A DNA stretch of 31,883 nucleotides, from positions 1 to 31,883 of IMG/VR virus record IMGVR_UViG_3300017971_000615. One strand, written 5' to 3'. The position numbers were made by a program, and so were the translations under genes. The notes below the pieces were generated by a model. It was not told where the DNA came from. It worked only from the letters and a program-made list of their open reading frames with translations, and did no database searches. Position 1 is the stretch's first letter. Each line of letters begins with the position of its first letter. The stretch is from a virus. Positions 3,990-31,883 of this stretch are shown here, piece by piece.

Positions 3990-6632
3990 ATGAGCACAAA
4001 ACCAAACGTACTGGTATCAGAAAAGGAGAAAACAAGTGAGTGGATCAAGGATATGATCATGAGTTACTCCAAAGATTATGGGTTATCAACTAATGTTATG
4101 AAAAAAGATATTATTTGTTTTAACTACTATAATAACATTTCTGATCCAGAAGATTTTAGCTACCTTACAAAAGTAGGTAAGCGAACACTACCAGCAAAGC
4201 TGAATTTCATTCCTTTACAAAGGCCAATAATTGACACTTTAATATCTGAATATACATTAAGAGCTTTTGTCTTTTCATGTTTTCTTGATGATGAGGATTC
4301 TATTAAGGAGAAAAACTATAACAAAGCAAAGGTATTCTTTGAAAAATTGAATGCAATTCTTAAGGGGAATATGTATTCAAATAATGAAAGAATGATGGCA
4401 ATGAGATCAAAGATTCAGGAATTAACTGATTTTGTTCAAAAAGAGCCAGAGTCCCAAGATGAGGCAATAAAACAACAGCAAGTGAGAGATCAGTTACCCC
4501 AGATAAGGGTACAGTTAAACACTGCCATGGACTTAATGCAAGGATCTAATGAAAAGATCAATGAGCAAATTGAAGAACTTACAAGGAATTTGAACTATAA
4601 GTACAAGGATATCAAAGAGATTGTTGCTTATAAGTTACTCCGGAAGTACTATAATCTTTATAATATAAAAGCCAAAGGAACTGAGAATTTCAGAAACAAT
4701 CTTATTACCGGTAAGCAGTATTATTACGTTGATTATATTCCGGGAAGCAAAGACCCGATATTTGAAAATGTTGATGTCTTGGAAATTTTATATCCATCGG
4801 TTGACAATGTAGACTGGATACAGGATTTACCATGGGTAAAAAGAACTGTCCATATGTCTTATGAGGACCTGGTTGTTCAATTTGGTGATGAGTTTGTCAA
4901 AAAGTACAGCAGAGAAGAACTTGAAGCTCTTGAAGATAGCACATCTTCAGCATCTACAGGATCATTTCTTTCTACACCTGAAGGTGCAATGTATACAGAT
5001 CAGCCTTATGCTGGTAATAATACTTCTAGTGGTATTAAGGTAGAATACATTTGGTATAAATCTCCTGTCAAAATAAACATTAAATTATCTGAAAATAAAT
5101 ATACCGGTGATTATTTCCGGAAGTTTCTTGATAAGTATAAAGAGGTAATTGATCAAAAAGATTATTACTATACCAATAATCAGTATGTAAATAAATCCAA
5201 TAATAAAATTGTTAAGAATTCTTCTGATGTTGAGGTTTATGATTCCAGAAAAGGTCAAAAAGTAAAAACAAAATATTCAACAGACCTTTATATGGGAGTT
5301 GTTATTGGTGGAGAGTATGTTGTAAGAGAATGCAAATCACCAGTTGTTATTCGGGATCCACAAGACTATTCTAAAATCAATCTCCCTATATTTGGAAGAA
5401 GCTTTAATAAGGTAACTAAAAGACCTTATTCATTAGTTTGGTCAACAAAAGGATTACAAGATCTTTATAACATTGTTTATTACCACAGAGAGCTCATGCT
5501 TAACCTGGCCGGAACAAAAACAATTATATTTGACAGGGCCCAGAAACCATCTACCCTTAATGATACTGAATGGGAAGAGCAAAAGAAATTAGGCACAATC
5601 AATATCCAAACAACTACTCCGGAAGGAAGTCCAATCAGGACAAACTTCAATCAATGGAGTATGCATGATCTATCTGTTTCTCCTGCTATTCAATATTTGG
5701 AAAATATGTTATTGGGGATTAAAGAAACTATGGGTGAGATTATTGGTGTACCAAGATCAAGAATGGGTAATGTTGTAAATGCTGATCAGGTAGGTACAAT
5801 GGAGCGTTCACTGGAAAGGTCCATGGTAATAACCGAAATACTTTTCTATGAATCTGATGAAGTACTTGCCAGGGCAATGTCTCAATTATTAAATATTGCC
5901 ATTAAGTATGTTTACAAAGATGGTGGTATATTCCAGTATATCAATAATGATTTGATGAATGAGGTTGTTACGATCAACAAAGATATGTTCAAAGGAGAAT
6001 TCTTTTCTGTTTATGCTCTCAATAATAATGAAGAGGCTACTGCAATAACAGAAATGAAAGAATTACTTATGGTTGGATATAAGTCTGGCAATATTCCTTA
6101 TTCAGATATGGTGGCAATGTTCCCGGCTGAAAGTTCAATTGAGTTAAAAAACAAAATTGAATATTTTTCTAAAAAGGCACAAAGACTTCAACAAGAAGCA
6201 GCAGAAGCTGATAAGGCCCATGAAAAAGATTTACAAGAACAGGCAATAAGATTTCAGCAAGAGTTTGATGCTTTCTGGAAGAAAGAAGAGCTTGCATTAG
6301 AAAAAGCTAAATTACAAGCTGATGAAGAAAGAGAAGCTGCTAAAATCAAAATACTTGAACAGAAGAATATTATTGAAGCTAATAAAGTACAAATAGATAA
6401 GTACCTGAAGTTAATTGAACTTGCCAATGAAAAAGATTCAGAGGACAAAGCTGTAGGTGCAAATTTATATAGAGCAAATTTGAACGCTAAACTTTCAATG
6501 ATGGATTCTCAATTAAATTATTTAATTAACCTTGAAAGAGATTCAACAAATGAAAGGATACAAACAAAAAAAGCAGAAGTTGATAAGATTAAAGCTAAGA
6601 AAATGGTTAGAGAGCATGTCTCAGATAAATAG
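3990..6632 (+). CDS. Portal protein
   Basis: The portal is a dodecameric ring at one head vertex; it docks the terminase, is the DNA channel and nucleates assembly. The call rests on position directly after terL, the large size (880 residues) and composition. The middle (YNIVYYHRELMLNLAGTKTI, then ENMLLGIKETMGEIIGVPRS) has the helical stem and wing pattern of podovirus portals. Residues about 725-880 are an almost unbroken charged helix rich in Glu, Lys, Gln and Ala (for example EKDLQEQAIRFQQEF), as expected for the long C-terminal barrel that extends into the head of P22-type and crAss-like portals. A second charged coiled coil lies near residues 105-210, inserted in the N-terminal part and rich in Gln. 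The TAG stop is followed by a 129-base gap containing a promoter. Confidence 0.88.
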   Translation: MSTKPNVLVSEKEKTSEWIKDMIMSYSKDYGLSTNVMKKDIICFNYYNNISDPEDFSYLTKVGKRTLPAKLNFIPLQRPIIDTLISEYTLRAFVFSCFLDDEDSIKEKNYNKAKVFFEKLNAILKGNMYSNNERMMAMRSKIQELTDFVQKEPESQDEAIKQQQVRDQLPQIRVQLNTAMDLMQGSNEKINEQIEELTRNLNYKYKDIKEIVAYKLLRKYYNLYNIKAKGTENFRNNLITGKQYYYVDYIPGSKDPIFENVDVLEILYPSVDNVDWIQDLPWVKRTVHMSYEDLVVQFGDEFVKKYSREELEALEDSTSSASTGSFLSTPEGAMYTDQPYAGNNTSSGIKVEYIWYKSPVKINIKLSENKYTGDYFRKFLDKYKEVIDQKDYYYTNNQYVNKSNNKIVKNSSDVEVYDSRKGQKVKTKYSTDLYMGVVIGGEYVVRECKSPVVIRDPQDYSKINLPIFGRSFNKVTKRPYSLVWSTKGLQDLYNIVYYHRELMLNLAGTKTIIFDRAQKPSTLNDTEWEEQKKLGTINIQTTTPEGSPIRTNFNQWSMHDLSVSPAIQYLENMLLGIKETMGEIIGVPRSRMGNVVNADQVGTMERSLERSMVITEILFYESDEVLARAMSQLLNIAIKYVYKDGGIFQYINNDLMNEVVTINKDMFKGEFFSVYALNNNEEATAITEMKELLMVGYKSGNIPYSDMVAMFPAESSIELKNKIEYFSKKAQRLQQEAAEADKAHEKDLQEQAIRFQQEFDAFWKKEELALEKAKLQADEEREAAKIKILEQKNIIEANKVQIDKYLKLIELANEKDSEDKAVGANLYRANLNAKLSMMDSQLNYLINLERDSTNERIQTKKAEVDKIKAKKMVREHVSDK

Positions 6633-7977: not shown

Positions 7978-9453
7978 ATGAGATTAAAATTAGGGCCTAC
8001 TGAAACTGTAGCACAGGAAAGTATTTCTAGTAGGTTATTGATTGATCAGGGAATTATAGATCCTGATTTCTTTCCAACTGTTATGTCAATTTATCCAGAG
8101 TTAACTCCATTAATGGCGTTACTTGACTTTAAAGGATTCAAAACTAAAGGAGTTGCTCAAAATGTTGGTTTAATGGAAGGTAGCAAGTATCGTGCTGTAT
8201 CATCTAACCACATTCAATTCCGTATTGCTAACAGTGATGTTAGGCGTGAACACTTCTCAGCCAATGCAGATGGTAAAACATTTGTAGACAGTGCTTCTTC
8301 TTCTTATCCTGGTCAGTATGGCCGTATGTTCTATATCTATCTGGATTCAAACTGGATTGGTATGAATGATGTTGCCCTGCTTGCTGATGGTGTAACCCAA
8401 TTATTCTTTGTTTCTGATGGAGAATGGGTAACCGGTGGTGTATGGGAATACAAAGTAAAAGTTGATGGATCCGTACATGAAGAGTATGTTGATCCACGGC
8501 TTATGGTAGAAGGTGATGAAATTCAACTTGCTACTACCAAATTCCCTCATGACTTCTCAGTTGGAGGTAATGAACGTCATACTTTTGGTGGATTTGGTGA
8601 TGCTTACTTGACTCTGCAAAGGTTTAAGTACAGCTGGTCAGGTACAGCAAAAGCAATGGACTCTAAACGTAAAGTTGAAGGTCGTTGGGTACAGTCAGGT
8701 GGAGATAAATCCAATATGGCTTTCTTACCAACAGCTCATGAAGAAATGATGAAGTGGGCCGGTAAAGCACTTGAATTCCAAATTCTGGAAGGTAAAGGAA
8801 CTGTTAATCGTGATGATAAAAAAGTCAAATTAACAGATGCTAAAAACCAGGAGATCCTTTCTGGTGATGGAGTAATGTATGCCGGTGATGGACCAATTGA
8901 ATTTCCTTTGAATGATGGTTGGACTCCAAAATCAATTGATGCTCTGCTTACAGATATCAATATGTATATCCGTCCTGATGAAATGGGACAAAGAGAGATT
9001 GCTTTCTTTATGCATCCAAAATCTTATTTGTCATTCCAAAGAGCTGCCAGGGAAATGGGAGTAACCATTGACTCTAACATTGTTGGAGAAGGTGGAGAAA
9101 AAATCATCAATAACACTTATGCAGGTTATGAGTTTGGTGGATTAAGAATGCTTGTTCATTCTTCCAGTGCTTATGATGGTCGTCCCGGAAAACTTCTGAA
9201 AGATGGTACTCGTTCTAATGAATGGGATGCTATTGGTATTCCTTTGGGATTAACTTCCGGTGGAGCAAGGGGTATTGAACTTGTACAACTTCGTCCTATG
9301 CAACAAGGTATGGTGGCCGGTATTGATTCAGGATTTGATTCCATTGCTACTGAAATAGATGGTAGTTCTCACCACGTTCTTTTACAGAACGGTGTAATAT
9401 CACAAACTCAGGTTGTTAAAGTAGGTCGTAACTGGGCTACAAACTTAGCATAA
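7978..9453 (+). CDS. Major capsid protein
   Basis: The 491-residue protein follows the scaffold-like gene after 22 bases, has the usual length for crAss-like major capsid proteins, and shows family-like traits: an N-terminal arm (AQESISSRLLIDQGIIDPDF) leading into a long helix, Gly-rich and aromatic beta segments, GEGGEK followed by NNTYAGYEFGGLRM, and a C-terminal RGIELVQLRPMQQGMVAGID. This fits an HK97-fold shell protein, with the hydrophilic insert at about residues 95-200 (rich in Tyr, Gly and Val strands) a candidate surface domain. C-ending codons such as GGC, TAC and CGT are more common here than in neighbours, in line with high expression. It probably shares the promoter near 6733. 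The AT-rich leader has no Shine-Dalgarno. The next gene follows after 36 bases without a clear terminator. Confidence 0.88.
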   Translation: MRLKLGPTETVAQESISSRLLIDQGIIDPDFFPTVMSIYPELTPLMALLDFKGFKTKGVAQNVGLMEGSKYRAVSSNHIQFRIANSDVRREHFSANADGKTFVDSASSSYPGQYGRMFYIYLDSNWIGMNDVALLADGVTQLFFVSDGEWVTGGVWEYKVKVDGSVHEEYVDPRLMVEGDEIQLATTKFPHDFSVGGNERHTFGGFGDAYLTLQRFKYSWSGTAKAMDSKRKVEGRWVQSGGDKSNMAFLPTAHEEMMKWAGKALEFQILEGKGTVNRDDKKVKLTDAKNQEILSGDGVMYAGDGPIEFPLNDGWTPKSIDALLTDINMYIRPDEMGQREIAFFMHPKSYLSFQRAAREMGVTIDSNIVGEGGEKIINNTYAGYEFGGLRMLVHSSSAYDGRPGKLLKDGTRSNEWDAIGIPLGLTSGGARGIELVQLRPMQQGMVAGIDSGFDSIATEIDGSSHHVLLQNGVISQTQVVKVGRNWATNLA

Positions 9454-13014: not shown

Positions 13015-13695
13015 ATGAAAACACTCAATCAATACGCAGAATCTATTATGATAGCTCTTAAGCAAGTAACTGACGAAAGTTATTTGTCCGGAAAAGAAGA
13101 GTGGATAAAAGATAAAATTAAAGATGTTAGGAATACACTTGCAAGAGAAGAGTTTTCAAACAATAAATATATTGATCCTAAGTATTATACTAAGCTTGAT
13201 CTTTTAGTTGAGTGTGATGTTAAAACTGTTACTGTTGGAAAAACTACAATTACAAGCAATGTAAAACTGGCAAGGATTGAATTGCCACCACTTATAAGTA
13301 GAGTTGGAGAACCGGTAACTTATATTGGAGATGATAATATACTTACTCCCGGATTTTATATTACAAGTTTATCAGGTCTAAATTCAAGTGATGCTGCTCA
13401 ATTTGTCTCCATGAAGCCATTAGCTGCCCGTGTAGGACCGTATGTATATTTAAAGAATATGCCAGCTGGAATGACAAATGCAACTGTTATAGCGGCTCTA
13501 AATGATCCAACTGATGATCCTAATTATTCAGATGATGATCCTTTTCCGGTAGCTTCTGAATACAAATTAGAATTACTTGTTAAGCAAGATATTTTAGCTG
13601 GATGGAATATTCCACTTGATGTTTTGCATAATGAAAATGATGATTCTATTCCTAATTCTAAAAACATGACAAATGCCAGCAGGGATAACAAGTGA
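13015..13695 (+). CDS. Ring/adaptor (connector) candidate
   Basis: A 226-residue protein with an N-terminal helical region (LNQYAESIMIALKQVTDESY, then EWIKDKIKDVRNTLAREEF), a beta-rich centre (CDVKTVTVGKTTITSNVKLA) and a segment near residues 170-200 reading YSDDDPFPVASEYKLELLVK, which is followed by a helix. Acidic turn plus FPVASEYK and a helix is a pattern often seen in connector and tail-adaptor proteins of podoviruses. It probably forms one of the rings between portal and muzzle. It starts 22 bases after the UUCG hairpin in an A-rich leader, and its end overlaps the next gene by 23 bases. Confidence 0.55.
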   Translation: MKTLNQYAESIMIALKQVTDESYLSGKEEWIKDKIKDVRNTLAREEFSNNKYIDPKYYTKLDLLVECDVKTVTVGKTTITSNVKLARIELPPLISRVGEPVTYIGDDNILTPGFYITSLSGLNSSDAAQFVSMKPLAARVGPYVYLKNMPAGMTNATVIAALNDPTDDPNYSDDDPFPVASEYKLELLVKQDILAGWNIPLDVLHNENDDSIPNSKNMTNASRDNK

Positions 13696-14161: not shown

Positions 14162-14639
14162 ATTTAATAAGATTAAGGATTTTGTCTTTAATTATCCTGA
14201 TGGATATAATATTACATCATGGGAAAAGCTATTTGGAGATTGGCTAGTGAAAGCAAGGAAAGGCTACTTAAAAGCAAGGTCAAGAAGTAGCATTGCAGAA
14301 ATGTTCATAGGAAGAGTTGTGAAATCATTTAACAAATTACTGTTAGATGATATTTTGTTTAATCATGTTATCTTTTCTTTTCCTTTTGAAAAGATGTATA
14401 TGTTTATTGCACAAAAGCCAGAGAAATCAAAAACTAAAAAAGTTTATTTAAGCACTGGTATGTATAATGTCGGTGTTTACATTTATTTTTTACCCAGCGT
14501 TAGAAAAAGAGTAGAGTTTAAATATATATACCCCATTGGTATTTACAGGAGTGAAATTAACAAAGCGTTAAAGCAAGGCCATAAATACCCCAGATATGAA
14601 GATGTTATTGCCTTTATAAATAAAAACGTATATGATTAG
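14127..14639 (+). CDS. Unknown basic protein in the connector cluster
   Basis: The 170-residue protein is strongly basic and aromatic (KARKGYLKARSRSS, then SFPFEKMYMFIAQKPEKSKT), without signal peptide or clear membrane helix. I do not recognise it. The first ATG (14127) follows an A-rich leader and gives a 35-base overlap with the preceding gene; an internal ATG at 14139 would shorten it by four residues and leave 23 bases of overlap, so the start is uncertain. The TAG stop overlaps the next start by 8 bases. The basic character would suit contact with DNA inside the connector or packaging of DNA ends, but that is speculation. Confidence 0.6.
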   Translation: MENNMEKQFQNRFNKIKDFVFNYPDGYNITSWEKLFGDWLVKARKGYLKARSRSSIAEMFIGRVVKSFNKLLLDDILFNHVIFSFPFEKMYMFIAQKPEKSKTKKVYLSTGMYNVGVYIYFLPSVRKRVEFKYIYPIGIYRSEINKALKQGHKYPRYEDVIAFINKNVYD

Positions 14640-15315
14640 TTCAGTATATTTTACTTCTCCCGAAATCATTCAAAATAAGTTAGTAAGGAGATACCGCAAA
14701 ATAAAAGAGTTTCATATTGATGATATTGTTGAATGGTGTGGTGATGTTGAAACAAACTATATCAATGACGTGGATCTTATGGTCAGGTTTAAGAATGTTC
14801 CCCTAACAGTTACAAATGGCAATGTATTACTCCCTTGTAATATTCATAGGATAATTGATGTTTATACAGAAGGAGATAGGATAATTGACTTTAAGCTTAA
14901 TTCATCCGGAGCCTACATGACTGATTTAAAATACCATGACAGCTTTGATTCAGAGTTTGATGAAACAACAATTTATCTTAACTATGTTGGTATTCCCGTA
15001 GATCCTGAAACAGGATATGTTTTAATAGCAAAAGGACATGAAATTGCTTGTGAAACTTTTTGCTTAATGAGGGCATTTGAGGAAGATGTTGCCATGGGTA
15101 AATTTAATATGAACTTTTGGGCCAGGTGGGAAGCACAGTTTCCTGGTCAGATCATAAATGCTTTGTCAAATCCATTCAGGCATAAAACACAGCAACACTT
15201 AAAAGATCTTGAAACAATTCGTTTTAATGCTTTGCCAAGGATAGGAAAGGTTGAACTTTCTCATGAAATGTTTGATGATAATGGAGTTATAGTAATACCA
15301 GAAATACAAGAATAA
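14632..15315 (+). CDS. Ring/adaptor (connector) candidate
   Basis: A 227-residue protein with an N-terminal helix (SPEIIQNKLVRRYRKIKEFH), beta segments (VDLMVRFKNVPLTVTNGNVL, IIDVYTEGDRIIDFKLN) and a C-terminal helix pair. The stretch TTIYLNYVGIPVDPETGYVL followed by a helix with two Cys and several aromatic residues (HEIACETFCLMRAFEED) closely follows the outline of podovirus head-tail connector proteins, where a YxxxPxDxxG turn precedes the last helical hairpin. It likely forms the last ring before the muzzle. The stop and the next start share one base (TAATG at 15313-15317), tying its translation to the muzzle-like protein. Which ring it is cannot be told here. Confidence 0.65.
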   Translation: MISSVYFTSPEIIQNKLVRRYRKIKEFHIDDIVEWCGDVETNYINDVDLMVRFKNVPLTVTNGNVLLPCNIHRIIDVYTEGDRIIDFKLNSSGAYMTDLKYHDSFDSEFDETTIYLNYVGIPVDPETGYVLIAKGHEIACETFCLMRAFEEDVAMGKFNMNFWARWEAQFPGQIINALSNPFRHKTQQHLKDLETIRFNALPRIGKVELSHEMFDDNGVIVIPEIQE

Positions 15316-19256: not shown

Positions 19257-21680
19257 ATGGGATTTCCATTTATGTTAGCTTTTGGAGCTGCATCAGCAGC
19301 TGGTAAAATAGCAAACTCCATCTGGGGTGAAAAAGAATTTACAAATTATAATCCAACAACTACTTTCCTGGGTGATTATAAAAGAGCAGGATCAATATCC
19401 GGAGTTCAGGGAGGATTTGAGTTTGACCCTAACAGTTTTATTGATACTAAGAGGACAACTTTTGGTAAAGTTATGGATATAGCATTACCAACTCTTGATA
19501 CTGGTATGGCAATAGCAGGAGCAGGAGGTTTTGAAAAAAAGGCTAAGGCAGGTATTTATATTAAACCTGAGAATAGAGGTAAGTTTACAAAATACTGTGG
19601 TGGTAAGGTAACCAGTGAATGTATACAAAGGGGCTTAAAAAGCAAATCAGCTGCAGTAAGGAAAAGAGCTAACTTTGCCAGGAATGCAAGAAAGTGGAAG
19701 AAAGGAGAAAATGGATTATATGTTGGTAAAGATCCTGAATTTATTTTTAAAGATAAGTACAATACTCTATTATCTAAAGATGAAATGACAAAGTTTAAGA
19801 AATGGGCTTTAGAAGAAAGTAAACGTCAAGGGAGAGATATAATGATGGATATTGGAGCTTATGATGTTCAAGGATTTTGGAAAAGTGGAGAATGGAAAAA
19901 TAAAGATAAAGGTGGTCATGGAACAGATAAATTTAAAAAACCAAATCATCCTACTTTTAGTAATGAATCTATGTATAGTGGAACAGATGGTTATGAAGGT
20001 GGTATATGGAGAGAAGATGGCGGTTTCATTCCTTCTGACTTTAGTAAAGAGCTTTATGATATGGAGTATTATAATAGACTTTTTGGGAGGGAACCAAATA
20101 GACCTGAGCATCTTTACTTTGAATATGGACAACCTGAATATGCTAAGGGCAAACCAAATATGAAAAGAGGTGGATTACTTCTTGATAAACCTGCTGATAC
20201 TACAAACAAACCACAATCCGAATTTGATGGAAGATTAGAAGCAACAATATTATCTGCTTTACCATGGGGAGCAAAAGCTCTTATGAATAATCCTGCTGTA
20301 CCTGAAATATTAGCTGGTTTTTATGGTTTGGGAAAAGGAATTGCACCGGCCAGTCTTATTAACCTACCAGGAGATATGTCACCTAATCAGGCTACTTATA
20401 AAAAGAATAAAGTAGCTTTAGAGAATATTGAAAGAGCTAAAAGCAAAGTAAGTCCTAAGCGTATTGATCCTGATTATCCAATGAACAGGATAGCAATAGA
20501 AACAGCAAATGAATTTTTTGGTAATCCTGATAACGATCTTATCATAGGCCCACAAAGTAAATTTCCTAAAAAAATGGAAGATGGTGGTTATGTAAACTCT
20601 ATTAAAAAAATCAATGGCCCTTCTCATGAATCAGGTGGAGTAGATAAAGTATTAAATGGACAACCGGTAGAAGTTGAAGGTGGTGAGTATCAATTTAATT
20701 TTAAAGATGGAAGTAAAGCTATTTTCAACAAAGAACAGATGCAAATGTATAACTCGGGAGTACCAATCTCGGAAATAATTAAAACTATGCCTAAAAATAA
20801 TGTGATTGCCAAATGTGGTATGAGAATCAAAAAGAAAGCCCAGAGTGGATTATACAAAGGTGGCCTCTATTATGATGAAGATAACCCTTATGGAGTCAAT
20901 CTTGAAATTCCTACTTTAGGAAATTACCCTGGAAAAGAATTTAATTTTGGAATAAAATCAAATGAGATATCTTTTCCTAATGTACTAGATACTCCTATGG
21001 GAAGTGAGTTAGATTATCTTAAGACTGATAAAATAGGCTCTCCTGAAACAAAAGCTGTTAACTTTTTTGATCAATATAGAAAAAACCTAAAAAACTCTGC
21101 TTTAGCAGCAGGAGCATTAGGAATTGGTCAAGTAGGACAAACTGTAGCTGATATGATACGTAATAAAAGCGAAAGAGGTCCGGAACCTATTCCTACAATT
21201 GCACCCAGAATGATCAGTCCTAGATATGTTAGTGCTGAACCTGGTATTCGTTCTACAGATAGAGCATTTGGTACTGCACTTGAAATGAGCAAAATTACCG
21301 GAAGGCCAGAATATATTCCACAACTATTATCACAGAAGTTTGAAACTACTGAAAAGATTGTATCTGATGTTAATAGGGTTAATGTAGGAGAAAATGCAAG
21401 AGTTGATGCTATGAATGTTCAGACTGGATTAAGAACAGATGTTGCCAACAGGCAAATAATGAGAAATAATGAAATGGATAGAATACAGTTTGATATGATT
21501 AAATCTCAGGTACGTGGTGGAAATATAGACAATCTTTATAAAACACTTGCCGGTATAGTTAATGTCGGATCTCAATTTGGTCAGAATAAACTTTCAGCAG
21601 ATATTATGGAATACTTAAAAGGATCACTAGCACCTATTGAATTTATGCAACTAATGAATAAATTAGGATTTAGTGAATAA
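19257..21680 (+). CDS. Internal virion (cargo-type) protein with conserved basic module
   Basis: This 807-residue protein opens with a small Ala/Gly-rich hydrophobic segment (residues 1-24, FMLAFGAASAAGKIAN). At residues 100-148 lies a basic module (RGKFTKYCGG, then SAAVRKRANFARNARKW) of a type I recall from many Bacteroidota and crAss-like phage virion proteins. A second recurrent signature is GPSHESGG at 454-461 with VEVEGGEY at 471-478. The region between is rich in Gly, Asp and Lys, while the end is helical and Gln/Asn-rich (NRVNVGENARVDAMNV). Position right after the muzzle gene matches a cargo protein ejected or packed inside the tail or head. No enzyme motif is seen. The basic module may bind nucleic acid. 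It ends with TAATG, coupling to the small gene that follows. Confidence 0.7.
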   Translation: MGFPFMLAFGAASAAGKIANSIWGEKEFTNYNPTTTFLGDYKRAGSISGVQGGFEFDPNSFIDTKRTTFGKVMDIALPTLDTGMAIAGAGGFEKKAKAGIYIKPENRGKFTKYCGGKVTSECIQRGLKSKSAAVRKRANFARNARKWKKGENGLYVGKDPEFIFKDKYNTLLSKDEMTKFKKWALEESKRQGRDIMMDIGAYDVQGFWKSGEWKNKDKGGHGTDKFKKPNHPTFSNESMYSGTDGYEGGIWREDGGFIPSDFSKELYDMEYYNRLFGREPNRPEHLYFEYGQPEYAKGKPNMKRGGLLLDKPADTTNKPQSEFDGRLEATILSALPWGAKALMNNPAVPEILAGFYGLGKGIAPASLINLPGDMSPNQATYKKNKVALENIERAKSKVSPKRIDPDYPMNRIAIETANEFFGNPDNDLIIGPQSKFPKKMEDGGYVNSIKKINGPSHESGGVDKVLNGQPVEVEGGEYQFNFKDGSKAIFNKEQMQMYNSGVPISEIIKTMPKNNVIAKCGMRIKKKAQSGLYKGGLYYDEDNPYGVNLEIPTLGNYPGKEFNFGIKSNEISFPNVLDTPMGSELDYLKTDKIGSPETKAVNFFDQYRKNLKNSALAAGALGIGQVGQTVADMIRNKSERGPEPIPTIAPRMISPRYVSAEPGIRSTDRAFGTALEMSKITGRPEYIPQLLSQKFETTEKIVSDVNRVNVGENARVDAMNVQTGLRTDVANRQIMRNNEMDRIQFDMIKSQVRGGNIDNLYKTLAGIVNVGSQFGQNKLSADIMEYLKGSLAPIEFMQLMNKLGFSE

Positions 21681-21829
21681 TGACAGCTATAGAAAAACTA
21701 GAAAACAGATTGAGATTATTAGAGTTAAGAGTTAAAACTGCAAAATGCAATAAACAAGTTGATATTTATTTAAAACAAGCTATTTTTGTAAAACAACAAA
21801 TTAACAAATTAAAAAGTAAAAGAAAATGA
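21680..21829 (+). CDS. 49-residue coiled-coil protein
   Basis: A short frame links the preceding and following genes: its ATG overlaps the upstream stop (TAATG at 21678-21682) and its TGA overlaps the next ATG (ATGA at 21826-21829). The 49-residue peptide (beginning MTAIEKLENRLRLLELRVKT and ending INKLKSKRK) is basic and shows heptad spacing of Leu, Ile and Val, so it should form a helix or coiled coil. There is no membrane segment. The double overlap fits a real gene much better than chance. Its role is unknown; an assembly helper or small virion component made with the cargo proteins is plausible. Confidence 0.75.
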   Translation: MTAIEKLENRLRLLELRVKTAKCNKQVDIYLKQAIFVKQQINKLKSKRK

Positions 21830-22287
21830 GCAAAGAGCTATTAAATCAGACAGGAGACATAATGCAAAAAGTCGTAAAAGAAGAAATAGAAAAAGAATTA
21901 ATTCCTTTTAGGATTTATCCTCATGTTTCACCTCCGGGTAAATTCATAGGTGAGTATTTACAGCCACCTCCATCTACAACATTAAAAATGCCAGCAGCAT
22001 TTGATTATACAAAACGTACTGATCCTGATGATGCATTAAGGAAATATTATGTTGGTCCATTGTTAATGTTTGTTCATAAAGTAGGAGAACCAAAACAATT
22101 AAGAGAGTCTCTTGAAGGTGCTGGATTTGACGAAGGAGATATTGTAATACCACAGGGATTTCAGGATACTCATGTACTGGACAGAAAGCTTTATGCTACT
22201 GTAAGATTTGATAATGTTGTAGTTATTATTAAAAGAGGAACAGAAGATCATAAGAAAATACTTGAATTCAATAAAATTGAAATATAA
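21826..22287 (+). CDS. Possible GroES-like (co-chaperonin-fold) protein
   Basis: In this 153-residue protein the C-terminal two-thirds recalls the GroES beta-barrel: YYVGPLLMFVHKVGEPK (residues 74-90) resembles the GxVxxVGxG strand, GDIVIPQG (104-111) the VGDxVxF strand, and KLYATVRFDNVVVIIK (121-136) the final EVxIMxExDIxA region. Residues 42-70 (LQPPPSTTLKMPAAF, then charged) would take the place of the mobile loop. It could be a T4 gp31-like phage co-chaperonin that assists capsid protein folding with host GroEL, or a structural protein that merely shares the fold. The N-terminal 25 residues are an acidic helix not found in GroES. The classical hydrophobic loop tripeptide is not clear. Both gene ends overlap neighbours (ATGA, TAATG). 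Confidence 0.35.
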   Translation: MSKELLNQTGDIMQKVVKEEIEKELIPFRIYPHVSPPGKFIGEYLQPPPSTTLKMPAAFDYTKRTDPDDALRKYYVGPLLMFVHKVGEPKQLRESLEGAGFDEGDIVIPQGFQDTHVLDRKLYATVRFDNVVVIIKRGTEDHKKILEFNKIEI

Positions 22288-24464
22288 TGTTAAGGATTTC
22301 TCCACAGGCTAATCAATTAGTTTTGCCTAGCCCTCAACCTTTGTCAATGCTACTATCTGGATTAGGTGGTAGCTCTTCTCGTTCTGGTAGTCAAGGATCC
22401 GGAACTGATAAAAATTTGAAGATGAATCCGGGTGATGCTGCTACTTATTCAATGGCAGTAAATAACTTAGAAGCACAATATAAAAGCAAGCTAAATAAAG
22501 TCTTTAATGATGCTATGCAAAGTAATGAAGGTTGGCAAGCATACGCAACTAAAGAGTCTACAATTAACGAACTCCAACAATACAATCAGGAGTATCAAAA
22601 TCAAAGATTGCTTTTGGATGCTGAAAAGGATTATCTTGAAGGTAATGTTGCAAGGTTAAATAATCTTGAAACATATTTAAAACAAAAACAGATTACTGAT
22701 AATGACTTTATCTGGGGAGAAGATGATGAAGGTAATGTTCAAATTGGAATTGACACTCCTGCAGGCAAAATAATGACAGCTGGTGCATTAAAAAATTATA
22801 ATGCAACTAAACCTTACCAATTAGGTTTTATGGAATATACGGCACCGGCCTTTGAAGAATTGGATGATTTGCTTAAAAGAAAACTTGATGAAGCAGCTGA
22901 AAATAGTGCTTATACAGAAGTAACCCAAACACAAGGAGATAAGGCTATAAGACAAAGGAATTATGTCAGTAATAAACCTCAACTTGAAATGGGTTGGCAA
23001 TCCTTTATGAATGCATTACCAGGAGATCAGGCTTTAACAAGAGCTTATAATATACGAAAGTATATCTATGACAAGCAACTTGAAGGATTAAGTGATGAAG
23101 ATCGTGAAAAGGCTCCTTCATTCCAGGAGTATATGATGGCTCCGGAAATCAATAAAAGAATTCCATTAAAAGATCAATTAGCTATTTCAGAAGCAACAGG
23201 TGAAACAGCAAGTAATAAAGATCAGTATCCTGATATTCCTACAAACTTTTTTATGAATGTTCTTTATGGAATGGACAGGATGTTGTCAACGGATCCTAAT
23301 AGCGTAATGTTTGATGCTACTGAAAGAAAAAACATTGCTCAGTATATTCCAGCATTTAAAGATAATGATGTTGTTAAGCCTTATTTAACAGAGTTTGATA
23401 CAGCTTTAAGTGAAGTAATGAGTGGAGAAGCAATTACTTCAGATAATGAAGATCTCACTGAAATTCTTGCAAGTGGATTAAAAGAAAGTTTACCTAAGTT
23501 AAGATTTGATCCCAGGACTGAAAGAGGAAAAGATGAACTTGATATGTATATGCAGGAGTTTAGAAATGAATACCTCTATACTGTATTAACTGATGCTCAA
23601 TTAAAAGAAGTAGCAAATGAAATATATGAAATTCCGGAAGTAAGAGAGCGAGAAGAAGAAGAGGGTTATGGAGCTGATTATGGTGTTGGTAAAGCATTAC
23701 AAAGAACAGGTGAAACGGTATTAGAATCATTATACCTTAAGCCAAAATCTCCTACTAAAGATGAAGCTAAAAAGAAAAGCGATCTTTACAAATTGGTTAA
23801 TGATCCAAACCTTACAAATTTTGAATTTAAAAATATTATACGATACGGAACCGTAACAACGGCTTATGATTTTGAAAACGAAGAATTTGAAAAAAGTAGT
23901 CTTTATATGAAAACCCCAACTGACAGGGTGTTATTTCTTGGTAATTATATTGACCCTACAGAACTATATGATCCAGAAGAAGGAGTTGAACCAGTATTTT
24001 ATGAAACCGGTGGAAAGATATATGCTGATATGCCATGGACATTAGAAGGTGGTACTGAAACAAAAGGTAATCCTGGTGCTAGGGTAAGGATGATGGTTTT
24101 AGATACTAAAGAAAATAGGAAAAAGATTAAGTTTACATTACCAGACAGTAAGAATGATATGATTACACGCACATTAAAGGAAACTGATGATGAAAGATTT
24201 CCGGATATGAATGTGCAGTCCATTACTTTAACAAAAGAATTTCTCAGTAGAAATCCTGATTTAATGAGTCGTGGTTACAAGGCAGGTGATGATGTTCTTG
24301 TATTAGGAGTAGACACAAGATATAATCAAATAGTAACAGATGCATTACAGGAAATATCTCCAAGCCAAAGAACATTTGGATTATTACCAGAAATAGAAGA
24401 TTACCTTAAAAGAATGGGAATAAACATTGTTATGCATCAAGGGTTTGATTATGCCCCAAAATAA
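22287..24464 (+). CDS. Internal virion (cargo-type) protein
   Basis: A 725-residue, acidic, mainly helical protein without recognised enzyme motifs. Residues 24-42 are a Ser/Gly-rich low-complexity linker (LSGLGGSSSRSGSQGSGTD). Residues about 55-135 are coiled coil (MAVNNLEAQYKSKLNKVFND, then Gln/Asn-rich helices). A second helical charged region spans about 430-490 (EVREREEEEGYGADYG), and the last 150 residues contain beta segments (RVRMMVLDTKENRKKIKFTL). Large helical proteins with a linker directly after the muzzle gene and before a giant ejected protein fit the virion cargo class of crAss-like phages. A contractile or ejection-channel role is not indicated. Start overlaps the preceding stop (TAATG); the stop is followed by a 131-base gap with a weak hairpin. 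Confidence 0.6.
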   Translation: MLRISPQANQLVLPSPQPLSMLLSGLGGSSSRSGSQGSGTDKNLKMNPGDAATYSMAVNNLEAQYKSKLNKVFNDAMQSNEGWQAYATKESTINELQQYNQEYQNQRLLLDAEKDYLEGNVARLNNLETYLKQKQITDNDFIWGEDDEGNVQIGIDTPAGKIMTAGALKNYNATKPYQLGFMEYTAPAFEELDDLLKRKLDEAAENSAYTEVTQTQGDKAIRQRNYVSNKPQLEMGWQSFMNALPGDQALTRAYNIRKYIYDKQLEGLSDEDREKAPSFQEYMMAPEINKRIPLKDQLAISEATGETASNKDQYPDIPTNFFMNVLYGMDRMLSTDPNSVMFDATERKNIAQYIPAFKDNDVVKPYLTEFDTALSEVMSGEAITSDNEDLTEILASGLKESLPKLRFDPRTERGKDELDMYMQEFRNEYLYTVLTDAQLKEVANEIYEIPEVREREEEEGYGADYGVGKALQRTGETVLESLYLKPKSPTKDEAKKKSDLYKLVNDPNLTNFEFKNIIRYGTVTTAYDFENEEFEKSSLYMKTPTDRVLFLGNYIDPTELYDPEEGVEPVFYETGGKIYADMPWTLEGGTETKGNPGARVRMMVLDTKENRKKIKFTLPDSKNDMITRTLKETDDERFPDMNVQSITLTKEFLSRNPDLMSRGYKAGDDVLVLGVDTRYNQIVTDALQEISPSQRTFGLLPEIEDYLKRMGINIVMHQGFDYAPK

Positions 24465-24505
24465 TCTCACAAGGCAAAGCCTATCACATATCCAGCAAAG
24501 CTGTA

Positions 24506-24526: not shown

Positions 24527-24595
24527 AAGAGTACTTTATAATAATTAGGTACTTTCACATCAAAGATATTTATAATAGCTTAAATCAATTATATT

Positions 24596-27500
24596 ATGGC
24601 ACTAGAAGAAACAAAAGGACAGGAGCAAATAACCCAGCAAGTAGATAATGGTAAAAGAAGAAGATTAAATTTTGCCAGGTCGGTACATGCAGGTGGAAGT
24701 TTAGCTGATATTTATGAAGCCTCACTTGAATCAGGTTTAGAACCAGAGATGCCAACATTTGAGGACTTTTCCCAATCTTTTCCAGAAATTCCTGAAGAAC
24801 AAAGAATGCCTTTGTATGAAAGAGCAAATCAAATGTTTGATCTTTACAATACAATTGAAAAACAAACTTTACAAACTTCCGGATATCGCTTTCCTGATAC
24901 TGAATATTTCAAAGGAGATCAGTATAAAAAAGATCTTTTAGCTGAAAGGTCAAAAAGGAATGAAGTAATTCTTGATGATCGGTTTTTCCATACAACAAGT
25001 GGAAAAAGATTTGAATTATATTCAATGGATGAAGAAGCAACTTCTAAAGGATTTTTTGAAGATAAAAACGGAAACCTTAAACCATTGGCTCTGGAAAAGT
25101 ATGCTGATAATAACTTAATGTTACAAATGACTCCTAATGGTAAAACCTATTGGAAAGAAGCAGGTGACAATGAATTTATTCCACCTGATCTTATTAAAGG
25201 ATATTTTGGTGACAGGGTACTTGAAACTAAAAGTGGTTGGGATAGTATTGCAAGAGGTTTATGGAGTGGCTCTGCTCCAATTGTTGCAAAAGGAATTGGT
25301 ACTGCCGCTGGTGTCATTGGTAGTTTAAAAGATCAACTATTTGGATGGGAAGGTAAACCAGAAGATAGGGGATATTATAAGTTTAATGCTGATATGCAGA
25401 ATTGGGCCAATATGCATTCAACAAAAAACTATGATGAAATGAATAGTATGTTTAATGACTGGAATGCAGCATTACATACTGTATCAAATGGTGTTACTCA
25501 GCTATTAGGAATTATAGCTGCCGGTGCTGTACTTGGAGGCGTAGGTGGAGGTGCTGCCAGGTTGTTTGGTGCTAATTTACCAGCCTGGGTTCCATTTCAA
25601 GGATCATTATTACTTGGTGACTTTGAAGCTGCTGCAGGAGTACAGGATGAGTTAATGAGACAAGGAGTTGATTTCCATAGATCATCTTGGTATCTTCTAC
25701 CTTATATGGCCGCAACCCATGTTTCAGAAATGACATTTGGTGGACTTGCTGAAAGAGCTGGTGGTGATATGGTTTTAAGGCAACTAGGAAGAAACAAGTT
25801 TACCAATGAAACAATTACTAAAACTGTAAATGATGTTGTTGGAGAAGCTGTAGCTACTACAGGAAAAGCATTAAGAAAAATGTCTGTTGCTGAACAAAAA
25901 ACTGTAGTTGGTAAAGTATGGACAACACTTCAAAATGCCAGGTTTGCTGCAATTGAATCTCAAATGTCTGCTGCTGCATCTAAGAGTGCAGGTAAAAGAT
26001 TTCTTTCCGGACTTAACAGGACAACCATAGCATCATTTACTGAAGGTGTGGAAGAGATTGAAGAAGCAGTAATGCATCGTTGGCTAAATATGTGGGTTAA
26101 TGGTAGAGAGGCTGTAATAGGTGAAAGATATGTAAACCTTCATGAAAACTATAATTATATCCCAAATAATCCTGATGATCCTACGCTTGGTTATAAAAGG
26201 ATAAGCAAAACAAATCCTACTGATGTTACTGATGTTACTTACAGAGAATATGAGGAACATGAGAAAAACATGAATCATTTTAATGATGTACTGGCCGGAA
26301 AGAAAACACTTGACACTACATTCAGTATTGAAGAAGGAGTGGCCGCTTTCCTTTCTACATTTATAACATTTGGGATTGGTAATGGTACCGGGATTATGTC
26401 ACCTCCACAGCATAAAGACAAAGCTCTTTATGATATGGCAAAGTTTGTCCTAAAAAATCCACAAGCAAATACTAAAGCAATAAGATCTCAAATTGATAAG
26501 CTTGTTAAAATGGGTGCCTTTACTGGAATAAAAGAGGATACTGCAAAACATATTGATATGTTTATGGAAGATCTGAATTTCTCAGTAGAGTTATTAAAGA
26601 AAATCAAGAATGATAAAACTGTACATGATGCCTTAAGAGGAAATGATTCTTTAATAAAAAGAACATTCATGGCTTATAGAGAGATTGAAAGAAGCAATCA
26701 GGCTATATCCAACCTTAATGGAGTAATGAATGAGCTTGGTGATAATGCACTGGAAGCAGACAATGAAGCCCTTGGTCTTAAAAAAGGAGATAAGGCCGCT
26801 GATATACAAAAACGAATTGAAGCAGAAGAAAAACTTTTGAAAGTTAGCCAGGATAATCTTAACTGGATAACTACTCCACAATCAAAAATGGCTCTTTCAT
26901 TTGATGATAAAGGTAAACCAGTAAGAACTGTTACTGATGAACAGGTTAAATATGGCAGTCCTTTAAAAGTTAAAAAGACAAGTGGTGCTTATACCGATAT
27001 GATGTTTAATTCACTTGCATTAAATTATCAGCTTAATCAAATGGCTGAAAAAGAAGCAAGGAAGAGATTAGGACTTAAAGAAGGTGTTAAATCAAGTGCG
27101 TTAACAAAAGAGATAGATAAAATATTACCCGGAATTTATTCAAGGGTAAAAATGGCTGATGTTAATTTATATCAGATGTTTAGTGGTGTAAGAGATAATT
27201 TCCTTTCAGCTTTAAACAAATATGCCAATTTACAAGATCAGGAAGCTGCAGATCTAAAAACTGTACTTGAAGAAACTTTCTTAAGACTTGGGAATAAGGA
27301 GTCTGTTGAAAAAGGTGCAATGAACAGAATTGATACATTGCTTAAGCCTATAAAAGATATTATTGCTGGTGTAGAAAAAGGAACTAATCTTTATGATAAT
27401 CCTGATCTTACTTATGATGTTGTTGCTGCAATGGGAAACCTTCAAGCAGGATTGGGAGAAATCAAAAAACTTGCTGGTATCCTTGAACCTACTTCTGAAA

Positions 27501-30500
27501 CCGCACAACAAATTGGAAGTTACCTATCAAATATTGATCAACTTGGAAATCAGTTAAATCAAAATCTTACAGAAAGTGCTATTAATGCTGGTATGGAAGA
27601 TCAGCTTACAGCATTAACCGGTGCTACTGATGAAATCAGATTAATGCTTAATCAACCTGTAGAAGGAGGATCCACTGCTTTTACAAATCCTACCGATGAT
27701 GATAAACTAGCTGCATTATATCTCATGCTGGATAGAAGAATGGCCATAGAATCAGCATATCAAACAGCAATTAAACAAGACGTAGCAAGCATTGGTATTC
27801 CACATAAGGTTTTACAGACGATTGTAGACCTATACAGGAACGATCTTGAATCATTAAAGACCTATATTGAATCTAATGTGAACTTCGTTCAGGGAAGCCT
27901 GGAAGCTACAGAAGATAATTCTCAGCACAGTCCTCTTCTTGATAATGATAATGCAAGGTTAAATAAAGGTATTCTTGATAAGTTTGGTGATTTTATTAAA
28001 GAGCAAGAGGAAAAGATTGAGATCATCAATGAAAAATTAAGTGACTTAGCCGGTAATAAATCAATTAATAATTTCAAGGTAGAATCATCTTATATTAATA
28101 TTGATCATGAGATGTTACTTACCTGGTTAAAATTCTTTACTCCTGAAATTGGATTTGAAGGATCAAAAGAGTTGCTGACATTACTGGAAGCCGGTAAGTC
28201 TAAAATTCAAACAATACTTGATAGTGATCTTGGTAATGGTGAAAAAGTAAAAAGCATTGATAATCTACTTCAATATTATCTAAAAGCTGAAGCAGAAGAA
28301 AAAGGTAAGATTGAAATAAAACTTCATGAAATAGAAAAAGCCATTATTGAGACAAAAGAATCTTTATCCGGAAAACTTGATGCAATGATTACCTGGTTTA
28401 ATAAAAAAGCCGGGAATTTATATTTATTGGGTGATCCACTAGATACTGATGCTCTTGTTGATAGAAAGTTATCTACTCTAAAAGAAAGAACAGAAGAATA
28501 TAATAATGGTCTATTGACTACTAAAACATGGGCAGACTCATTTCATTATTTCTTTAATGGTTCCGGAAACTCAATAAGTAATATTCAAATGAAGAGGTTT
28601 TTCTTTCAGCATACGATTAATACTTTAAATGAAGTTAATCAGTATGGTCAGAATGAAACTCCCTCTATAATGGATGTCATTCAGGTTGCCAGGGATATTG
28701 TGAAAGAAACTCCAATGGGTGATAATGTAAATACCTATGAACAGGAAAGAATGTTGATTACTATTATTGGATTTTTGTTCTCTCCTTCCAACCAGTTTCT
28801 CAAAGATGGAGTTACTCAAAAAACAATACAAAAATCAGTACATCATATTATAGATAATGTTCTTTTTGCAAAAGGATATGGTGGTACCGGTAAATCTACA
28901 TTGGTTGTTTTAAATACAATAAAAGCCTTTAATAGATTAAATGATAATAAAAAACTTAATGTTACTGTAATTGTTCCAAGTGAAGATCTTATTCAAACTT
29001 ATGAAGAGAATTTAGAAGGTACTGAAAAAATAGTAGGTGTTGAATATAAATTACTCCATGAAGTATTGGGTAAAGGAGAAGTATCTTCCCAGGATATTGT
29101 TTTTGTAGATGAAGCAACAGTTATTCCTACAAGTCAAAGAGAAAGAGTTTCAGAGCTAGTTAAAGCAAGCAATTCAAACTGGATCTTTTTAGGAGATGAT
29201 GTACAAACAACTGCTTTTAAAGATGTAAGCATTGATCCTGAAACAAAAGAAAGAACAATTTTTAATGTAAACAAAGAAGAGTATCTTTTAAATACAATGG
29301 CCCGGTTTACACTTCCATTAACAGAAGTATTTCGTGCCAGATATCTTCAGTTTTCACAATTGCAAGATGCAGTAAGAGGTGCTAAATATCATTTTTCAAG
29401 TGACTCAATTAATGAGTTTTTAGATTTTAATCTTGCTTCTTTTAAAATAAAACAGGACAATACAGGTAAAATTGGTATTCAATTCTTTTCAAATCAAGTA
29501 GAGGATCCTGCAGAAAATAGGTTGATACAAGAATTTATTGATTTTAATGAAAAATATCCTGAACAAGGAAAAGATTCTGTTTTAATATTTCTTACTAATG
29601 AAGATCTTGAAAATGCTTTAAATAGAAATGAAGCATTAAGAGAAAAACATTCAGGTCAATTAAAAACTGTAGAGTATGATTTAATAGGATTAATAGACAA
29701 TCCTAAAAAAGCAAACAGGTTGGTTTCTGGATTACAAGCCGATGCAGCTTTTGTAGCTATTGATTTTAAAAAACACAAATTATTTAATTCAAGTAACCCT
29801 GCTGAAAGAGTAGATAAAAAAATGTTATTAAGATCATTCTTGGTTGCTACATCAAGACAGAAATCTTACTTGGCACTACCAGGAGATCCTAAGAACTCAA
29901 AACCAATTGAACAGGAACTTGCTGATAGCGAAATAGCAACTTATGATGGTAATTTAGAATTTGCAGAATTACATAAAGAATATCTTGTTGGAGAAGATGG
30001 AAATGGTGGACGTTATAGCTATTTATTAGCTGGTAGAGAAGATAAGCCCGGAATGAAACCCTCTAAGACTTCAGCAGACGATCAGGAAGAGGCGTTTGAT
30101 AAAACTTTAATGTTGGATACCACAGGAGATGATAACGCTGCTCAGAAAGTCCATAAAGAGACTAAAGAGTTTATTGCAAAACTTAAAAAGAATCGGGCCA
30201 GGGGAACAAGGTTAAGTGATTTGTTTTGGGAAATTGAGGATACTCTAAAAGATCAGAATAAATTAACAGAAAACGAATTACTTTCTATTATCAATAACGA
30301 AGAAGCTACAGAATCAGAAAGAGAATCTGCAACCCAGATATTATCTAATAAAAAGTTTCATAAGCTTTTTAACATAGCAACCAATTATGTATTGATTGAG
30401 GCTAATAATCCAAAAAGTAAAAAACTATTGGCATTAAAGACTGAAGGGGAATCTATTTATCAGTTTCTTAATGACAGATTATCCTATCAGTATTCCGATC

Positions 30501-31883
30501 CGGAAGCTTTATTTGAAAGTCTTGTTAAAGTAATTTCTCTTGAACCAGATATTTCACTTGCAGCAAGAAACAATCTTGCTATACCGGCTCCATTCTTAGT
30601 AGCTAATGTTGATGGAAATACATTTGTTTCTCAACCAAACCTTATTAATATTGTAGGATATACAACAATTAACAACCAGGTAATTCCAATTGCAGATCTT
30701 CATATTTTCCATTACAGAAATAACAATAAAGTATTTCCATCTGATTTACTTCATATTGGAGGACAATTAGCCTTAATGTTACAGAGTGGAATGAAAATCA
30801 ATAATGTTTCTGTTCACAATTTTAATATTAACTGGAAAGAAAAGCCATTAACCACAAGACATCTTGAAAGAATAACACTAACAGAAGATCAAATTATTGG
30901 TGCTTTAAATGAAGCAAATATAGAACTTGGAATAAAGGGAACATTTGCTCAAAATGATGAAGAGAATGAGTTCATATTTGACAGGACAGCTTTAACATCA
31001 GAAACAGAATTTGGTGCACAAGAAAGGATTCTCTCTCAATACAAAGAGGTAATGCCAGGTTTGCTTTATGTTAAAGATGGGAAAAAAGCCACAGTGCATA
31101 GCATTACTACTCAAATAGTAAATGGTAAAAGAGTAGTTATGGTAAGGCTTGATAGTAAAACTAAAATTCCTTATGAAGAATTTAAGCAAAAGTACATTAC
31201 CGATTCAGCTGAAGGTAACCTAACAATATATAATTCCTCAGCTAATAAATTTGCTGATCATAATTTGATGTATGCAACATCTATGATTAGTGTCATGGAT
31301 TCGGATATGCAAGAACTCCTTGTCCCCTCCATTAATTTCTTTGAAATAACCGGGCCTAACAGAAATGAATTATTGAAGTTTAGACAAATAATGATAAGTG
31401 GACTTAATACACAAGTCCATAGTTTTAAACTGGTACTTCATTCAGAACCTATTAATGGTATAGCTGTAGATAAGAAAGATGATAATATTGTTGAGAAAAA
31501 TGTGTCATTTGGTAATCCAAAAGCATTCCAATATCCTGTATCAATCCAGTTTAATTCAGATAAAGCAATACAATCTACCATAGACAAAGTAAAAGGATTA
31601 AAAGATCAACTTACTATTCTTAAAGAAAAAGCAAATCTTACTAAAATGGATGATGTAGCTGCTTTTAAAAAGATGGGTCTTGATAAAATTGGATTTCTTG
31701 GTGAAGTTGAATATGATTATCATAGAAGTCTTTCTAAAACAGAATTTGTAGAACAGGCAAATAAATATGTTACTTCTGAAAAAATGACTTCAGAAGAAGC
31801 TAAAAAAATACTTGGTGATATATTTGAAAATGCATTCCCACTAACAGAAGAACAACGTGACGATGAAATAGCTAAATCAAGTA
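24596..31883 (+). CDS. Giant multidomain protein with SF1 helicase core (runs off the window)
   Basis: An ATG at 24596 opens a frame with no stop to the window end: at least 2429 residues, C-terminus missing. Residues 1-200 are helical and charged; about 213-345 hold two Gly/Ala-rich hydrophobic stretches (QLLGIIAAGAVLGGVGGGAA at 302-321); about 350-1350 are mostly helical, with a recurrent-looking EGVEEIEEA near 483. Residues about 1350-1770 are a superfamily 1 helicase: Walker A GYGGTGKST (1427-1435, Lys1433), motif Ia VTVIVPSEDL, Walker B FVDEAT (Asp1505, Glu1506), motif III FLGDDVQ (1531-1537), motif IV-like LTEVFRAR (1575-1582), motif V GLQADAAFVAID (1712-1723) and motif VI LVATSRQK (Arg1754). 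The DEA and GDDVQ forms resemble RecD/Dda-type (SF1B) helicases. The rest is unassigned. Following cargo-type genes, it is probably a virion protein ejected with the DNA, helping entry, unwinding or transcription; alternatively an early replication protein. Confidence 0.85.
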   Translation, partial: MALEETKGQEQITQQVDNGKRRRLNFARSVHAGGSLADIYEASLESGLEPEMPTFEDFSQSFPEIPEEQRMPLYERANQMFDLYNTIEKQTLQTSGYRFPDTEYFKGDQYKKDLLAERSKRNEVILDDRFFHTTSGKRFELYSMDEEATSKGFFEDKNGNLKPLALEKYADNNLMLQMTPNGKTYWKEAGDNEFIPPDLIKGYFGDRVLETKSGWDSIARGLWSGSAPIVAKGIGTAAGVIGSLKDQLFGWEGKPEDRGYYKFNADMQNWANMHSTKNYDEMNSMFNDWNAALHTVSNGVTQLLGIIAAGAVLGGVGGGAARLFGANLPAWVPFQGSLLLGDFEAAAGVQDELMRQGVDFHRSSWYLLPYMAATHVSEMTFGGLAERAGGDMVLRQLGRNKFTNETITKTVNDVVGEAVATTGKALRKMSVAEQKTVVGKVWTTLQNARFAAIESQMSAAASKSAGKRFLSGLNRTTIASFTEGVEEIEEAVMHRWLNMWVNGREAVIGERYVNLHENYNYIPNNPDDPTLGYKRISKTNPTDVTDVTYREYEEHEKNMNHFNDVLAGKKTLDTTFSIEEGVAAFLSTFITFGIGNGTGIMSPPQHKDKALYDMAKFVLKNPQANTKAIRSQIDKLVKMGAFTGIKEDTAKHIDMFMEDLNFSVELLKKIKNDKTVHDALRGNDSLIKRTFMAYREIERSNQAISNLNGVMNELGDNALEADNEALGLKKGDKAADIQKRIEAEEKLLKVSQDNLNWITTPQSKMALSFDDKGKPVRTVTDEQVKYGSPLKVKKTSGAYTDMMFNSLALNYQLNQMAEKEARKRLGLKEGVKSSALTKEIDKILPGIYSRVKMADVNLYQMFSGVRDNFLSALNKYANLQDQEAADLKTVLEETFLRLGNKESVEKGAMNRIDTLLKPIKDIIAGVEKGTNLYDNPDLTYDVVAAMGNLQAGLGEIKKLAGILEPTSETAQQIGSYLSNIDQLGNQLNQNLTESAINAGMEDQLTALTGATDEIRLMLNQPVEGGSTAFTNPTDDDKLAALYLMLDRRMAIESAYQTAIKQDVASIGIPHKVLQTIVDLYRNDLESLKTYIESNVNFVQGSLEATEDNSQHSPLLDNDNARLNKGILDKFGDFIKEQEEKIEIINEKLSDLAGNKSINNFKVESSYINIDHEMLLTWLKFFTPEIGFEGSKELLTLLEAGKSKIQTILDSDLGNGEKVKSIDNLLQYYLKAEAEEKGKIEIKLHEIEKAIIETKESLSGKLDAMITWFNKKAGNLYLLGDPLDTDALVDRKLSTLKERTEEYNNGLLTTKTWADSFHYFFNGSGNSISNIQMKRFFFQHTINTLNEVNQYGQNETPSIMDVIQVARDIVKETPMGDNVNTYEQERMLITIIGFLFSPSNQFLKDGVTQKTIQKSVHHIIDNVLFAKGYGGTGKSTLVVLNTIKAFNRLNDNKKLNVTVIVPSEDLIQTYEENLEGTEKIVGVEYKLLHEVLGKGEVSSQDIVFVDEATVIPTSQRERVSELVKASNSNWIFLGDDVQTTAFKDVSIDPETKERTIFNVNKEEYLLNTMARFTLPLTEVFRARYLQFSQLQDAVRGAKYHFSSDSINEFLDFNLASFKIKQDNTGKIGIQFFSNQVEDPAENRLIQEFIDFNEKYPEQGKDSVLIFLTNEDLENALNRNEALREKHSGQLKTVEYDLIGLIDNPKKANRLVSGLQADAAFVAIDFKKHKLFNSSNPAERVDKKMLLRSFLVATSRQKSYLALPGDPKNSKPIEQELADSEIATYDGNLEFAELHKEYLVGEDGNGGRYSYLLAGREDKPGMKPSKTSADDQEEAFDKTLMLDTTGDDNAAQKVHKETKEFIAKLKKNRARGTRLSDLFWEIEDTLKDQNKLTENELLSIINNEEATESERESATQILSNKKFHKLFNIATNYVLIEANNPKSKKLLALKTEGESIYQFLNDRLSYQYSDPEALFESLVKVISLEPDISLAARNNLAIPAPFLVANVDGNTFVSQPNLINIVGYTTINNQVIPIADLHIFHYRNNNKVFPSDLLHIGGQLALMLQSGMKINNVSVHNFNINWKEKPLTTRHLERITLTEDQIIGALNEANIELGIKGTFAQNDEENEFIFDRTALTSETEFGAQERILSQYKEVMPGLLYVKDGKKATVHSITTQIVNGKRVVMVRLDSKTKIPYEEFKQKYITDSAEGNLTIYNSSANKFADHNLMYATSMISVMDSDMQELLVPSINFFEITGPNRNELLKFRQIMISGLNTQVHSFKLVLHSEPINGIAVDKKDDNIVEKNVSFGNPKAFQYPVSIQFNSDKAIQSTIDKVKGLKDQLTILKEKANLTKMDDVAAFKKMGLDKIGFLGEVEYDYHRSLSKTEFVEQANKYVTSEKMTSEEAKKILGDIFENAFPLTEEQRDDEIAKSS

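Follow-up and report, generated by a model that had tools for sequence, protein, structure and literature searches.

A giant reading frame of a crAss-like phage that carries an SF1 helicase and most likely forms the first half of a virion RNA polymerase protein

The giant open reading frame (ORF) at the 3' end of the viral contig investigated here (IMG/VR record IMGVR_UViG_3300017971_000615; all 31,883 nucleotides, hereafter the window) encodes a superfamily 1 (SF1) helicase and most likely represents, as judged from sequence comparison, the N-terminal half of a virion RNA polymerase giant rather than a separate machine. An earlier note on this DNA had considered a distinct ejected machine, a proposal that is probably not right, as the same chain runs into a zincin and a crAss-type virion RNA polymerase in both complete relatives, designated G002 and C222. 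The overall reading that we regard as rather probable is that of a crAss-like virion giant, whose helicase would be followed beyond the window by the zincin and a two-barrel virion RNA polymerase, and which would be packed and ejected with the helicase serving the polymerase. The fused helicase touches two questions, namely the access of virion RNA polymerases to their template and the function of the long parts of the giants outside the polymerase; a DNA-unwinding motor may accompany the polymerase when infection begins.

The phage and its giant gene

The features of the window are compiled in Table 1. By its sequence the contig belongs to a distant crAss-like phage, and its MCP also matches a crAss-like family, albeit weakly: the tblastn matches of TerL and portal are almost exclusively crAss-like records with 22–27% identity, and the tail ring and tail stabilisation genes are present in the conserved crAss order. 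With a TerL identity of about 25%, the phage may represent a deep or outside branch with respect to the recognised families of Crassvirales. The virion module proposed in the earlier note was confirmed by the CrAss_Ring_1 match above the cut-off and by the crAss-like TerL and portal proteins. The giant ORF follows the tail stabilisation gene and, as also proposed, cargo-type genes, whose slot is filled by three ORFs according to the comparison with Cellulophaga phage phi14:2, Flavobacterium phage Fpv3 and G002. Homologue searches with these three ORFs (807, 153 and 725 aa) found none, and the two small ORFs at 13673-14161 and 14127-14639, candidates for IHF-like genes, lack a Pfam or PHROG match.

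Table 1. Coordinates of the features in the window and the evidence for their assignment.
Feature	Position	Strand	Evidence
Terminase large subunit (TerL), crAss-like	1915..3984	+	phrog_6681 3e-37; tblastn Crassvirales; 50% to G002
Portal protein, crAss-like	3990..6632	+	phrog_6547 2e-43
Major capsid protein (MCP)	7978..9453	+	phrog_11589 1e-4; 51% to G002 ORF at same place
Probable tail ring protein 2	13015..13695	+	CrAss_Ring_2 1e-4, below cut-off; 28% to G002
Tail ring protein 1	14632..15315	+	CrAss_Ring_1 9e-8, above cut-off
Tail stabilisation/muzzle protein homologue, 1312 aa	15315..19253	+	blastp to phi14:2 g071 7e-6; homologues in G002 and C222
Three ORFs (807, 153, 725 aa), cargo-gene slot	19257..24464	+	position compared with phi14:2, Fpv3 and G002
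Giant ORF (P0001), N-terminal part of proposed helicase-virion RNA polymerase giant	24596..31882	+	2429 codons, open at 3' end of window
Conserved N-terminal module, residues 139-766	25010..26893	+	blastp to G002 giant 24%, E 1.6e-25; to C222 giant 23%, E 1.5e-11
Hydrophobic Gly/Ala segment, residues 303-321, inside N-terminal module	25502-25558	+	hydropathy
SF1 helicase block, residues 1200-1790	28193..29965	+	107 bits to G002 vs <=33 in shuffles; E 7.6e-27 to C222 over 1054-1781
Walker A GYGGTGKST, residues 1427-1435	28874..28900	+	GKST invariant in giant ORF, G002 and C222
Walker B VDEA, residues 1504-1507	29105..29116	+	DE invariant
Motif III FLGDDVQ, residues 1531-1537	29186..29206	+	FL-x-DD-x-Q invariant
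Motif VI RSFLVATSR, residues 1746-1754	29831..29857	+	terminal Arg invariant
Post-helicase conserved region, residues 1969-2415	30500..31840	+	blastp to C222 giant E 3e-5

The giant ORF runs off the end of the contig without a single stop codon, for which the chance is about 10^-91 given its base composition. The other frames contain 96–359 stops, and the GC content by codon position (0.47/0.33/0.19) is gene-like. The uninterrupted frame claimed previously is borne out by these statistics and by the ORF call itself. Searches of the giant ORF in PHROGs and NCBIfam returned nothing, PDB sequence searches gave no meaningful match, and tblastn against 50,697 phage records found none. The N-terminal module has no library match, and comparison with the N-termini of cr50/cr53/cr118, phi14:2 g067 and Fpv3 gp32 revealed no homology. 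The membrane-like Gly/Ala segments described earlier are reduced to one modest segment at residues 303-321, the only one in the giant ORF that passes a Kyte-Doolittle threshold of 1.5. The stretch from 30500 to 31840 bears a faint likeness to RecB-type nuclease motifs from which the catalytic residues are absent; an inactive PD-(D/E)XK nuclease was considered from this motif resemblance and is not claimed, as Pfam gives no support.

Two complete relatives and the polymerase half

A TerL profile search of IMG/VR retrieved 80 crAss-like loci, and 42 of the records were examined for a homologue of the giant ORF, which was present in a single one, namely G002 (IMGVR_UViG_3300013122_000005; 54,403 bp). 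Its genome is collinear with the window and carries an intact giant of 5301 aa in the same slot. The second relative, C222 (G046:C222), was reached by the family TerL profile in GTDB contigs; an earlier scan of genome contigs gave none, and no relative was detected when viral contigs were scanned with single-sequence patterns of the MCP, the 725-aa ORF, the giant ORF and the helicase segment of the latter. C222 is a contig in a metagenome bin titled 'Bacillus sp. isolate CSSed10_241R1', is collinear with the window and harbors an ORF of 6668 aa. Both giants sit after the muzzle protein within a synteny of about ten genes. The giant ORF matches both of them over residues 139-766 and 1054-1790, and C222 additionally over residues 1969-2415.

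Beyond the part that corresponds to the window, both relatives contain a zincin motif between helicase and polymerase (HEAVH at 2715 in G002, HEAMH at 2698 in C222) and the pattern RIPT-x(3)-SS ... G-x-DYD-x-D near residues 4526 and 4499, respectively. The polymerase loop of phi14:2, RIPNQGQSS ... GSDFDIDK, exhibits the same pattern. A 12-member profile of crAss virion polymerases scored 38 bits on G002 with hmmsearch, compared with at most 15.9 bits in 60 shuffles, and hhalign of G002 against this profile gave an E-value of 6e-11. The joint alignment of G002 and C222 reached a probability of 97.9 (E 3.9e-13) over 715 columns, and the reversed control 0.1%. The score of C222 alone against the profile was low (6.8 bits versus at most 2.3 in 40 shuffles), and the two relatives match each other over the polymerase region with an E-value of 2e-72. 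A five-sequence polymerase profile gave no match in G002 that passed the search filters, and when the 12-member profile was cut down to 94 columns around the DxDxD motif, G002 scored no better than shuffled sequences. The DxDxD loop is absent from the window itself, which ends too early by comparison with G002; according to the relatives it most probably stops about 290 codons before the zincin and about 2100 codons before the polymerase loop.

Several further features of this clade were observed. Its phage contigs G046:C222, L146 and L148 belong to metagenome bins that bear the labels Bacillus sp. and Bacteroidales, and the Bacillus label is probably wrong for the phage contig C222. The TerL of the closest relative (L002:3070-6363) appears to be split by an intein-like insert. 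In G002 the helicase giant is followed by a second giant (2695 aa, G002:C1:4188-12275) with an ART-PolyVal ADP-ribosyltransferase domain at the cut-off and two HExxH motifs. The 6668-aa ORF of C222 (15930-35936) has a second HExxH at 5338, past the polymerase, which would fit a fusion with the counterpart of the second G002 giant.

The SF1 helicase

The profile search of the giant ORF supports the helicase with a Pfam AAA_30 match on residues 1408-1540 (28817-29215; E 3.2e-8) of 34 bits, above the cut-off of 27. The motifs I, II and III of the SF1 RecA1 domain are present with their catalytic residues, and K1433, D1505, E1506, Q1537 and R1754 are identical in the two relatives despite an overall identity of about 25%. 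The catalytic Lys, Asp, Glu, Gln and Arg are in place as the earlier note had stated. A profile of the three helicase sequences aligned with a Dda/crAss SF1 profile with a probability of 98.1 (E 1.3e-13), and the reversed control reached 1.8%. Among phage proteins, Dda/RecD-like SF1 helicases come closest, with weak scores. The assignment of the putative second RecA domain is based on motif VI and the relatives, with zero library matches. The AlphaFold model of residues 1201-1800, calculated from two sequences, was uninformative about the fold (pLDDT 34).

The motif series listed in the earlier note is present, with motif V in a degenerate form (LVSGLQADAAFVAID) that lacks the usual SQG core. 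Motif V is non-canonical in all three helicases, and in G002 an E replaces the G of motif III; unwinding may therefore be weak or absent. T4-type Dda and phage RecD-like SF1 helicases share the RecA1 domain and motifs I, Ia, II and III with the giant ORF, but they are stand-alone proteins with a canonical motif V. Taken together, the comparison identifies a real, fused helicase of the Dda/RecD type, which is predicted to be active.

Helicase-polymerase fusions and their possible role

The giant ORF occupies the gene slot of the giant proteins of crAss-like phages. Two members of Suoliviridae resemble the relatives in combining a zincin, a virion polymerase and an SF1 helicase in one chain, namely cr50_1 gp059 (NC_055868, Boorivirinae; 4774 aa), located in the same gene slot as the giant of the window, and cr118_1 gp14 (NC_055872, Uncouvirinae; 4946 aa). 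The helicase precedes zincin and polymerase in the giants of G002 and C222, whereas it follows them in cr50_1 gp059 (Walker A at 4275, polymerase at 3154) and cr118_1 gp14 (4471 and 3207), where its sequence is canonical. The fusion of helicase and polymerase is hence not unique to the present phages, but the N-terminal placement of the helicase is new here. The helicase tree has very long branches and is compatible with a single fusion event as well as with two. A literature search for a helicase fused to a virion polymerase, in either arrangement, retrieved none in the literature covered; Yutin et al. 2021, who mention 'several large, multidomain proteins' in the transcription block and show domains in a figure (PMC7886860), may have given prior notice of it.

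Elsewhere among the crAss-like phages examined, the SF1 helicase has a gene of its own or the giant yielded none. As most of them have a giant polymerase without a fused helicase, the latter is dispensable for polymerase function in general. The virion RNA polymerase g066 of phi14:2 is located in the same gene slot and shares the DxDxD and RIP-x(5)-S core with the relatives, but here g066 (2180 aa) is encoded separately from g067 (1797 aa) and neither contains a Walker A motif; the order is the g071 block, then g070-g067, then g066. Fpv3 has the same gene order, in which the muzzle and cargo genes are followed by gp32, a single giant of 4287 aa that contains the polymerase motif but no helicase, and the AAA_30 proteins of this phage are encoded by separate genes on the other strand.

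The proposed chain would comprise the N-terminal module with its hydrophobic segment, long helical stretches, the SF1 helicase, the post-helicase region, a zincin-type HExxH and the two-barrel polymerase. It would travel in the head as cargo, pass through the tail together with the DNA or ahead of it and refold in the host, where the zincin may cut it. The helicase would then spend ATP moving on the entering phage DNA and open it for the polymerase, or feed it, and the polymerase would transcribe the early genes. In crAss-like phages the virion polymerase is a packaged protein that leaves the particle with the DNA and transcribes early genes, and cargo is ejected too (review PMC10136315). The genes g066 and g067 of phi14:2, which share the slot of the window's giant, were annotated from MS/MS virion proteomics; by analogy, this finding and the gene order point to packaging and ejection of the giant. 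More generally, we infer the continuation of this ORF, its packaging, ejection and catalysis, as well as the coupling of its helicase to transcription or DNA entry.

The N4 virion polymerase needs denatured DNA, and DNA binding or unwinding by an extra domain has been speculated (PMC12633501); for virion polymerases fused to large proteins, a coupling of DNA translocation to transcription has been proposed (PMC10770324). A helicase within the chain would suit both of these roles. The fused helicase, with its two arrangements in crAss-like phages, makes the N4 unwinding guess testable (PMC12633501). A bolder and rather doubtful version of our reading is that of an ejected single-chain motor-polymerase, realised in two fusion orders in crAss-like phages, whose helicase might pull or unwind the entering genome, hand the template to the polymerase and thereby couple genome entry to the first transcription.

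An alternative role, independent of transcription, is that of a polyvalent conflict protein, whose helicase would move on the incoming DNA and act against host restriction or other defence as in DarB of phage P1. Polyvalent proteins are large chains that reach the host by delivery, are likely processed by zincins and carry helicases, DarB being like the proposed giant a large delivered multidomain chain with a helicase (PMC5512222), and the giant gene next to the helicase giant of G002 contributes an ART-PolyVal domain at the cut-off and two HExxH motifs. However, the prevalent helicases described for these proteins belong to SF2 and are fused to a methylase, as in DarB, which has no polymerase (PMC5512222), whereas the helicase of the giant ORF belongs to SF1, and searches of the giant ORF for a methylase or a methylase-SF2 helicase dyad gave no match. 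The polymerase in the chain of the relatives points to transcription, and we regard the conflict role as improbable.

Slightly less credit still is due to a decayed helicase whose remaining function in the giant would be DNA binding or structure alone. The very long branches of the helicase tree, the degenerate motif V shared by the three members and the E that G002 has in motif III would fit such a decay, but the retention of GKST, DE, FL-x-DD-x-Q and the motif VI Arg in all three at about 25% identity is unlikely for a dead enzyme. A giant that stays unpackaged and acts inside the infected cell as a transcription or replication protein is very improbable given its position within the late virion block, where it takes the slot of the MS-detected virion giants of phi14:2, and the presence of the same polymerase motif in Fpv3 gp32, an annotated virion structural protein.

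Database names hide the polymerase of the known fusions, since cr50_1 gp059 (65825-80149) is listed as 'DNA helicase' and cr118_1 gp14 (16381-31221) as 'exonuclease V'. The 2626-aa protein gp01 of cr124_1 (L111:22-7902) is also named 'DNA helicase', yet it has the virion polymerase loop and lacks Walker A; this name seems to be wrong, and the giant seems to be split by the ends of the linear record.
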